Origin: an uncultured Gammaproteobacteria bacterium
GTDB lineage: Bacteria; Pseudomonadota; Gammaproteobacteria; GCA-001735895
Reading direction: 5' to 3'
Assembly (NCBI GenBank): GCA_937984095.1
Contig: CALJYH010000091.1
Coordinates: 1 to 43,334, forward strand
Length of the DNA: 43,334 bases
Part shown: positions 28,979 through 31,211 of the stretch, in pieces
How positions within the stretch are numbered: position 1 is the first letter of the stretch
Layout of the letters: each line of letters begins with the position of its first letter
Translations under genes and position numbers: made by a program
Notes under the pieces: generated by a model
Databases searched by the model: none
The model's input: only the letters and a program-made list of their open reading frames with translations
What the model was told of the DNA's origin: nothing

Positions 28979-29346
28979 CCCGGTGCCTATCCCCGCGAAT
29001 CTATCCCTGAAGCTTTAGCTGGACCGAATTCAACAATCAAGCTTGACTGGAAATCGCCGCAGAAGGTCGACACTTAACTTTTAGTTTTAAGTTTCTGCTG
29101 CGAAGAATTAGCCAGGCTGGGCGACGATGATTTTACTCTGCCTTGGGTGTGTGCCTTAATCTAGTAGTCACGGTGAAACACCCCTCTACCTTGCTCCACC
29201 AGCATCAGGATCGACATATCCGTGCCTTCGTTTAATGATCCACGTCAATTACTCTGCACCTGGTCGTCGATTTAACCCATATGGGTGATGTTCGTGCAAG
29301 TGCCAGTTGTTACTGTTCATATATAAACAAGTAGAGGGTGAATATC
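28979..29346. other. Gene-free stretch after rapA
   Basis: No gene of any length with a credible start is seen. A nested imperfect hairpin lies at 29059–29098 (outer arms GCAGAA/TTCTGC, inner arms ACTTAA/TTAAGT) and a perfect 12-base palindrome ACCCATATGGGT at 29275–29286. TATAAA at 29322–29327 is a possible -10 for the next gene. Base use becomes AT-richer than in rapA. Confidence 0.6.
29269..29290 (+). repeat. 22-base upstream motif, copy A
   Basis: Starts GATTTA and contains the perfect palindrome ACCCATATGGGT followed by GATG. It matches 18 of 22 bases with 29655–29676. It lies 56 bases before the GTG of the mini-protein gene and could be an operator. Confidence 0.5.
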
Positions 29347-29556
29347 GTGAAAATAAGGACAATTCTTGTGGCTTCGATACTGTTTCTTGTGTCGGTGCAG
29401 GTTAAAGCGACGACGCTGGATACAGTGCTAGCAGAAACCTCAGAAGTCGCGGTATGGTCTGAGTTAAGTCCCGTCTCCATCCCAGCCGTCTTATGGTTAT
29501 TTGGTACTGCACTGATAGGTTTCGTTTGTATGTCCAGAAGGACAAATGTAAATTAG
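29347..29556 (+). CDS. Mini secreted protein with PEP-CTERM-type (WLFG) sorting tail
   Basis: This 69-residue product has an N-terminal signal peptide (MKIRTILVASILFLVSVQVKA), a short mature stretch of only about 25 residues rich in Thr, Glu and Val, and a C-terminal tail SPVSIPAVLWLFGTALIGF followed by VCMSRR. The tail matches the exosortase-sorted PEP-CTERM/VPLPA pattern: a Pro-x-Pro-like start, WLFG(S/T)AL hydrophobic helix, then basic residues. I chose the GTG at 29347 over 29338 because AGAGGG then sits at normal spacing and the product starts MK. No exosortase gene is in the window. The role is unknown; the near-absence of a mature domain is unusual. Confidence 0.75.
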   Translation: MKIRTILVASILFLVSVQVKATTLDTVLAETSEVAVWSELSPVSIPAVLWLFGTALIGFVCMSRRTNVN

Positions 29557-29583
29557 AACCACATAACAACATTTATTTGACAG

Positions 29584-29608
29584 CCCCGCCACTGTGCGGG
29601 GTTTTTTT
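29584..29608 (+). terminator. Intrinsic terminator after the mini-protein gene
   Basis: CCCCGC and GCGGGG flank a six-base loop and are followed by seven T residues. It ends the mini-protein transcript 27 bases after the stop. The stem is the same as in the terminator at 30833–30854. Confidence 0.92.
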
Positions 29609-29654
29609 ATGTGCAAGGTGAAGTAATCCTCACAATTACCATGAATAACTCATG

Positions 29655-29676
29655 GATTTACCTTATATGGGCGATG
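29655..29676 (+). repeat. 22-base upstream motif, copy B
   Basis: GATTTACC and ATATGGGCGATG align with copy A at 18 of 22 positions; the central palindrome is broken here. It lies 62 bases before an ATG whose frame is stopped two codons later. Confidence 0.45.
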
Positions 29677-29981
29677 CGTTATATCGGGTCAGGCTGATAT
29701 ATTGCGATTGGTACTCTTAAATTTGGGGTACGGATAAAATGGAATAAATTCCTGGGATTTTTATCGTGTTACTCGTTATGGGTATTTTGAGATTCGCATT
29801 TGCTCATGGAAAACGAAATCTAGGCTCTTCCTCAATAACAAGTAGCGGTTTATAAACGCTCGAACACAGACCTGAGTTGATTCCGAATTGGAACTAATTT
29901 TATTTCTGTAACGGAATTATACGCTGGCCTGTTTTAATTTTTACGTCTGAAATTATAAATCTGATAAAGGGGGATGTAATC

Positions 29982-30359
29982 ATGGCTCAATATGCAGAAA
30001 ACCGAAGCTGTATCACGCAATTCGAACTAGGTGAAATGTTTGAGAAGAATGACAGGGCGCGGGACTATACGTCAGCGTATAGATGGTATTTGCGCTCGGC
30101 TAAACATGGTTACCGCAAGGCACAACACCGATTGGGCACCATGTATGCCCGTGGTGCTGGCGTACCGAGAAATTATATCGAGGCTTATGCCTGGTGCAAG
30201 GTATCAGCAGCGCAACACTCCCGAAGTGCACTATTAAAGCTAAAGAAAATTGAACCACATTTGTCAGCGGAACAAATCTCTAATGCGAAGAAGTTATCGA
30301 GACAATACTACGAAATGTATGTAGCGCCTTTTGCTAATCGGGCACTAATTAGGGAATAG
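29982..30359 (+). CDS. Sel1-repeat protein
   Basis: The 125-residue protein contains Sel1-like repeats: one around residues 28–63 (DYTSAYRWYLRSAKHGYRKAQHRLGTMYARGAG) and a second around 64–90 (YIEAYAWCKVSAAQHSRSALLKL). A basic helical tail follows. Sel1 repeats are helical protein–protein interaction units. There is no signal peptide, so it probably stays in the cytoplasm, unlike many Sel1 proteins. A strong AAAGGGGGATG ribosome-binding site precedes the ATG. The HIRAN gene starts 9 bases after its stop, so the two are likely one transcript ending at the terminator at 30833. The function is unknown. Confidence 0.88.
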   Translation: MAQYAENRSCITQFELGEMFEKNDRARDYTSAYRWYLRSAKHGYRKAQHRLGTMYARGAGVPRNYIEAYAWCKVSAAQHSRSALLKLKKIEPHLSAEQISNAKKLSRQYYEMYVAPFANRALIRE

Positions 30360-30950: not shown

Positions 30951-31211
30951 GTGAAATATGTCGCTGTTACTTGTCAGTGCTTTGTATAACCTAAGCGCCC
31001 CATGTTTCCTTCAATCTTACAAGCTGATTTAGTTTCCATCGTCCCCATCCAGGTAGCCATCTGGCTATTCGGTACAGCACTCGTCTATTGCTTATTCCGA
31101 TACTCTCAGGATGGAACATCAGGAACCGATCATAACCCAATCGTATTTTTCCTGGCCTCAATTTCAGGAGAGCCATACGATACCCTGTTCAGTTCAGATA
31201 GTTCTTTCTAA
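30951..31211 (+). pseudogene. Decayed WLFG-tail mini-protein gene
   Basis: Reading from the GTG at 30951 gives a short MK-start peptide of 12 residues, then an in-frame TAA at 30987–30989. The same frame continues with an ATG at 31002 and the segment VSIVPIQVAIWLFGTALVYCLFRYSQ. That segment lines up with the sorting tail of the intact mini-protein (SPVSIPAVLWLFGTALIGF). Tail glycines are replaced and the basic cluster is weakened, then the frame runs on for about 33 residues to 31211. The architecture and lengths parallel the intact gene, so I read it as a damaged paralogue. No ribosome-binding site is visible before either start. It could also be a translated 69-residue peptide from 31002. 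Confidence 0.5.

Follow-up and report, generated by a model that had tools for sequence, protein, structure and literature searches.

A 69-codon gene joining a signal peptide to a PEP-CTERM-like tail is probably an emptied surface-protein gene

The 69-residue open reading frame at positions 29347–29556 (plus strand) of the window, which is the whole stretch of 43,334 nucleotides analysed here, is probably a PEP-CTERM surface-protein gene that was emptied by an internal deletion of its mature domain. A full-size gene would have lost the mature domain, and what remains would be an "empty cassette": the promoter box and start site, the signal peptide with a short join, and a PEP-CTERM-like tail with its terminator. 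If the cassette is transcribed, the mini-peptide would be exported and its signal peptide removed; the C-terminal helix would then anchor the product in the inner membrane, leaving about 25 residues in the periplasm, or the product would be degraded. Most likely, this mini-gene is a recent and dispensable by-product of the building and breaking of genes in the genus. It lies on a 43-kb contig of a MAG of 1.97 Mb that is 62.7% complete.

The start codon of the mini-gene is the GTG at 29347, not an ATG, and the stop codon is the TAG at 29556; an alternative GTG at 29338 would yield 72 residues. The Shine-Dalgarno-like sequence AGAGGG (29332–29337) lies ahead of the GTG at 29347. The signal peptide MKIRTILVASILFLVSVQVKA (29347–29409) contains a hydrophobic stretch with a mean Kyte-Doolittle value of 3.26 over 10 residues and an A-x-A-like cleavage site between VKA and TT. 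It is followed by a middle of about 25 residues (short coding part 29410–29472) and by the SIPAVLWLFGTALIGFVCMSRRTNVN tail, which is a degenerate PEP-CTERM tail with the sequence VSIPAVLWLFGTALIGFVCMSRRTNV (29473–29550). Downstream, the terminator CCCCGCCACTGTGCGGGG with its T run (29582–29609) forms a stem of 8 bp at 29582–29603, of which 6 are G-C, and ends in T7. The description given in the first-pass annotation, namely a signal peptide, some 25 further residues, a WLFG tail with a basic end, a strong terminator of its own and hence the layout of a real transcription unit, agrees with these elements and with the promoter box described below.

The closest DNA relative of the mini-gene is a full-size PEP-CTERM gene of the same genus (L011 in genome G009, minus strand) with a frame of 214 residues; the counterpart protein comprises 207–214 residues. 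Three blocks of the window match this gene in conserved order and strand: the upstream and promoter region (29135–29290, 67% identity), the signal-peptide part (29336–29409, 77%), and the tail with the terminator (29482–29612, 71%). About 490 bp of L011, located between the signal-peptide and the tail block, have no counterpart in the mini-gene. In the base alignment, the start context ATCGTGAAAATAAG around the GTG is common to both genes. Further DNA matches to L004, L114/L159 and others likewise indicate common descent with PEP-CTERM genes. The terminator is also common to full-size PEP-CTERM tails, and 13 of its 15 distinct copies in the genus, counted with up to 3 mismatches, are located behind an intact or decayed tail. 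Judged from these alignments, loss of the mature domain would be the simplest history, and an assembly from two genes is possible. The deletion is inferred from L011, which is only a cousin (71–77%) rather than the parent gene of the strain itself; a similar picture would result if an older mini-gene had gained a domain, or if parts of two genes had been joined.

By sequence, the tail qualifies as a true homologue of the PEP-CTERM tails of the genus, and the mini-protein as a relative of PEP-CTERM proteins that no longer satisfies their models. It reaches 62.6 bits with the genus tail profile A1, which has the mini-gene itself among its members. Its scores lie below the cut-offs of Pfam PEP-CTERM PF07589 (15.5 versus 20.7 bits) and of TIGR03370 VPLPA-CTERM (14.5 versus 25.35), and TIGR02595 reported no match to the mini-protein up to an E-value of 10. 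Because the Pfam and VPLPA matches begin at profile positions 5 and 4, most of the V-P-x-P signature is unmatched. Instead of this P-x-P type signature, V-S-I-P precedes the helix. The consensus VPVPAA has become VSIPAV and one conserved G has become C; in terms of the 27-column tail, P2, A6 and G19, which are nearly fixed elsewhere, are replaced by S, V and C. In profile A1, P2 is conserved to at least 90%. The core WLFGTALIG is unchanged, and the helix and the basic cluster near the C-terminus are present, as indicated by VLWLFGTALIGFVCMSRRTNVN directly ahead of the stop codon and by the profile match. A comparison of 21 codons with those of 24 other tails yielded pS values of 0.60–1.01 and pN values of 0.14–0.30. 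Silent differences are thus near saturation and replacements are few, which argues for selection on the tail frame in the family; these values do not separate selection before the formation of the mini-gene from selection after it. Conservation of the frame, whose absence in relatives would by the first-pass annotation have refuted its idea, is thus seen in the tail (pS >> pN); close relatives lack the ORF.

The promoter box TTTAACCCATATGGGTGAT (29271–29289), on the plus strand like the other elements of the mini-gene, belongs to a set of PEP-CTERM genes of the genus. It scores 30.1 bits with a matrix built from the boxes of other genomes, compared to 15.8 bits for the best of 20 shuffles. With up to 2 mismatches, the palindromic box TTTAMCCCRTTTGGGTGAT occurs at 133 sites in the 31 genus genomes, as opposed to 2 sites for the reversed pattern. 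Of these 133 boxes, 38 have a same-strand tail no more than 1.4 kb away; conversely, such a box accompanies 23 of the 40 full-size tail frames, and none of them if the box strands are swapped. Among 84,980 species scanned for exact matches, 26 stretches were found, 22 of them in Gammaproteobacteria MAG records. The sequence TACTGT (29311–29316), 21 nt after the box, is the likely -10 element. This spacing would correspond to an activator site adjoining the -35 position. The arrangement differs from the one given for Proteobacteria by Haft et al. 2006 (PMC1569441), which is a sigma-54 type promoter with a motif 1 ending in TTTACA about 63 nt before the GG/GC site; matches to the GG/GC pattern are at chance level in the window, and none precedes the mini-gene.

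The same box also precedes genes of other kinds. One is a conserved stretch of about 200 nt without a plausible ORF (G000:C55:31341; L204, L241), which occurs as well at L195, L196, L198, L203, L205, L207, L208, L210, L251 and L255. It has a -10 element GATACT 21 nt after the box, the spacing seen in the mini-gene, and a near-invariant 3' end ATTTAATCGCGCAATRTTTGCGGGCCTCTTCGGGGGCCTTTTTT. This stretch is likely to encode a regulatory RNA, judging by its sequence features. Rfam contained no match to it; two-sided changes affect 11 of 33 predicted pairs, and the overall covariation term is weak. Another box-led gene codes for a conserved cytosolic protein of 86 residues (L240, L242, L243, L244, L246, L185, L186) with the pattern M[DE]ISPQI.PTST..LLTCLGLAIDETKL..., of which the genome of the window has a copy too; a family match to this protein was not found.

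Fewer than 300 bp separate box and tail in 12 distinct constructs of the genus. In four of them a signal-peptide ORF runs in frame into the tail, namely in the window and in G002 (92 residues), G004 (74 residues) and G020 (75 residues). The middles of these four proteins are unrelated and have nothing in common. The remaining eight constructs have no signal-peptide ORF and comprise no more than a box, a leader and a tail or its remnant; such box-tail elements without a protein in between are scattered across the genus. Emptying of the interval between box and tail is therefore common in the genus. The chance that all four signal-peptide constructs are in frame is (1/3)^4, or about 0.012, in a post hoc count of four cases; retained coding is thus mildly favoured. 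The two-part layout is rare, as the first-pass annotation had supposed: beyond the four cases in the genus, no signal-plus-tail mini was shown in a sample of 143 genomes of the class with about 150 PEP-CTERM tails. The six shortest PEP-CTERM frames of this sample (44–115 residues) lack a signal peptide and were read as fragments.

Exosortases were searched for with PF09721 and TIGR04178. None was found in the 62.7% complete genome of the window, and the near relatives G018 and G029 (91 and 96% complete) also gave none. In the search proposed by the first-pass annotation, another intact PEP-CTERM gene was likewise not found in this 63% complete genome. Weak TIGR04178 matches in G018 and G016 were rejected as divergent exosortases: the former falls on an ABC-transporter permease, the latter on a homologue of this permease at a contig end. 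Five of the 31 genus genomes (G005, G017, G019, G028 and G012) possess exosortases, all of which pass TIGR04178; those of G005 and G017 exceed 220 bits with PF09721. The enzymes of G019 and G028 are of the fused type with a protease-like C-terminus, and the G028 copy lies beside a VPEID-type ORF. The neighbourhood of the fused gene is conserved in the two genomes (L087, G019:C551; L128, G028:C289) and includes a sterol-desaturase-like gene and a protein of about 280 residues with a VPLP-WLFG tail. At least three tail matches were found in 13 of the 31 genomes, and all five exosortase genomes are among these 13 (hypergeometric P of about 0.008, not corrected for relatedness), which fits a link between exosortase and tails. 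Several near-complete MAGs have tails and no detected exosortase, for example G011 (10 tails) and G020 (6 tails); the enzyme may have been lost in binning or have escaped detection, or the system may be a relict.

These data bear on the idea that the mini-protein is a working miniature exosortase substrate, whose tail would be recognised and cut, either freeing a peptide of about 22–25 residues or transferring it to a surface polymer. The full layout with promoter box and terminator speaks for it, as do the tail-rich exosortase genomes in the genus and another mini-protein, L014 (74 residues), which passes TIGR02595 with 20.7 bits at a cut-off of 16. However, none of the curated models accepts the tail of the window protein, in which the first Pro of V-P-x-P is missing; searches of its own genome and of G018 and G029 gave no exosortase, and the middle of the peptide differs from mini to mini. 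We consider this idea quite improbable. With part of the signature gone and no exosortase found, sorting of the mini-protein in this strain is unlikely. The suggestion of the first-pass annotation that a sorted peptide of about 25 residues serves as a signal, a decoy or a polymer cap is thus not upheld, all the more as the ORF is absent from close relatives.

At the same place behind rapA, an orthologue is absent in G029 (RapA about 95%), where a different gene occupies the site; the DNA matches of G018 and G016 likewise stop at window position 29059. With regard to the surroundings of the Sel1 gene, identity to G017 (83%) begins only at 29617, past the terminator, and G029 has kept the terminator (29575–29681, 79%) with no ORF ahead of it. 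Because G029 and G017 lack the ORF, the mini-gene is young or dispensable. Downstream of it, a second, weaker box TTTACCTTATATGGGCGAT (29657–29675, plus strand, 22.0 bits) is kept upstream of Sel1 in G017 and G029. It is followed by the decayed start of a signal-peptide gene (ATGGAATAA..., 29740–29855, plus strand) with a stop at codon 3; positions 29743–29818 share 74% identity with a second box-led gene of G009, which is an upstream gene there. The Sel1-repeat protein itself (29982–30359, plus strand; Pfam Sel1, 44 bits) has homologues in 23 of the 31 genus genomes, several of which are located about 55–115 bp from a box copy, often in reverse orientation (L297, L298, L304, L305, L307). In G018 (L275, contig C166), the 3' end of a tRNA-Met recurs several times behind the tRNA gene, next to remnants of PEP-CTERM genes, copies of the box and a Sel1 gene; the site looks like an integration hot spot.

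It is very improbable that the mini-gene is a pseudogene without a product, with 69 codons left open by luck. The tail is off-consensus, the adjoining second box gene is already broken (ATGGAATAA at 29740), and orphan tails are numerous in the genus, including one of 25 residues in the same genome (C56:2585-2647). However, the start site, the signal peptide with its good cleavage site and the full tail share one frame, and the box match is almost perfect.

Many membrane proteins of less than 70 residues work without sorting, and the mini-protein, put to a new use after the deletion, might likewise function as a small protein that spans the inner membrane once. The intact frame, the in-frame fusion in all four signal-peptide minis and the regulated promoter are in line with this possibility. 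The same island also encodes a small membrane protein of 69 residues with WLFGTALVYCLFRY (31002–31211), which is truly conserved in five relatives (G011, G017, G018, G027 and G029). For the mini-gene, however, no conserved orthologue was found, and the ORF is missing from the closest relatives that have the neighbouring Sel1 region; a function of this kind is therefore unlikely. The ORF at 31002–31211 was rejected as a second PEP-CTERM mini, as it represents a conserved 69-residue family without a basic tail end; its WLFGTAL likeness to PEP-CTERM tails seems to be a coincidence or due to ancient descent.

Compared to known systems, the mini-gene shares with the PEP-CTERM/exosortase (EpsH) system (PF07589/TIGR02595/TIGR03370) the signal peptide, the C-terminal helix with basic residues at the extreme end, the single-gene unit after a long non-coding region, and DNA homology to the PEP-CTERM genes of the genus. 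Unlike PEP-CTERM proteins, its product has no mature domain, has partly lost V-P-x-P and misses all cut-offs, and an exosortase was not found in its 62.7% complete genome. In size and layout it resembles EppA, the "EPS-associated small membrane protein" (NF046088, 58 residues; residues 5–67 match profile positions 4–57 of 58). Identity with EppA was rejected: the score is 18.9 bits at a cut-off of 90, full-size PEP-CTERM tails score about the same (16.9), and none of 369 genomes of the class contains an EppA above the cut-off. The flocculation-associated PEP-CTERM protein PepA (NF033554) is matched in its tail only (residues 41–66 versus 235–260 of 261), and no other part of PepA is present. 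A tblastn search of a phage collection gave no match to the mini-protein, and in the open literature that was searched, neither small exosortase substrates nor a box-controlled PEP-CTERM regulon of this kind turned up.

Emptied cassettes may be kept in the genus as a functional class of tiny regulated membrane peptides, for example as competitors for the sorting enzyme or as acceptors for recombined surface domains; we regard this as a rather improbable extension. The mini-gene is primarily evidence for the turnover of PEP-CTERM gene sets, the mini-protein itself being probably a by-product. Promoter plus signal peptide and tail plus terminator act as reusable end modules, the middle being lost or exchanged, and this turnover leaves empty and orphan copies. 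Signal-plus-tail mini-ORFs should thus not always be taken for sorted peptides. Furthermore, the genus-wide box lies ahead of PEP-CTERM genes, of genes for small proteins and of what appears to be a non-coding RNA, and defines a concrete candidate regulon.
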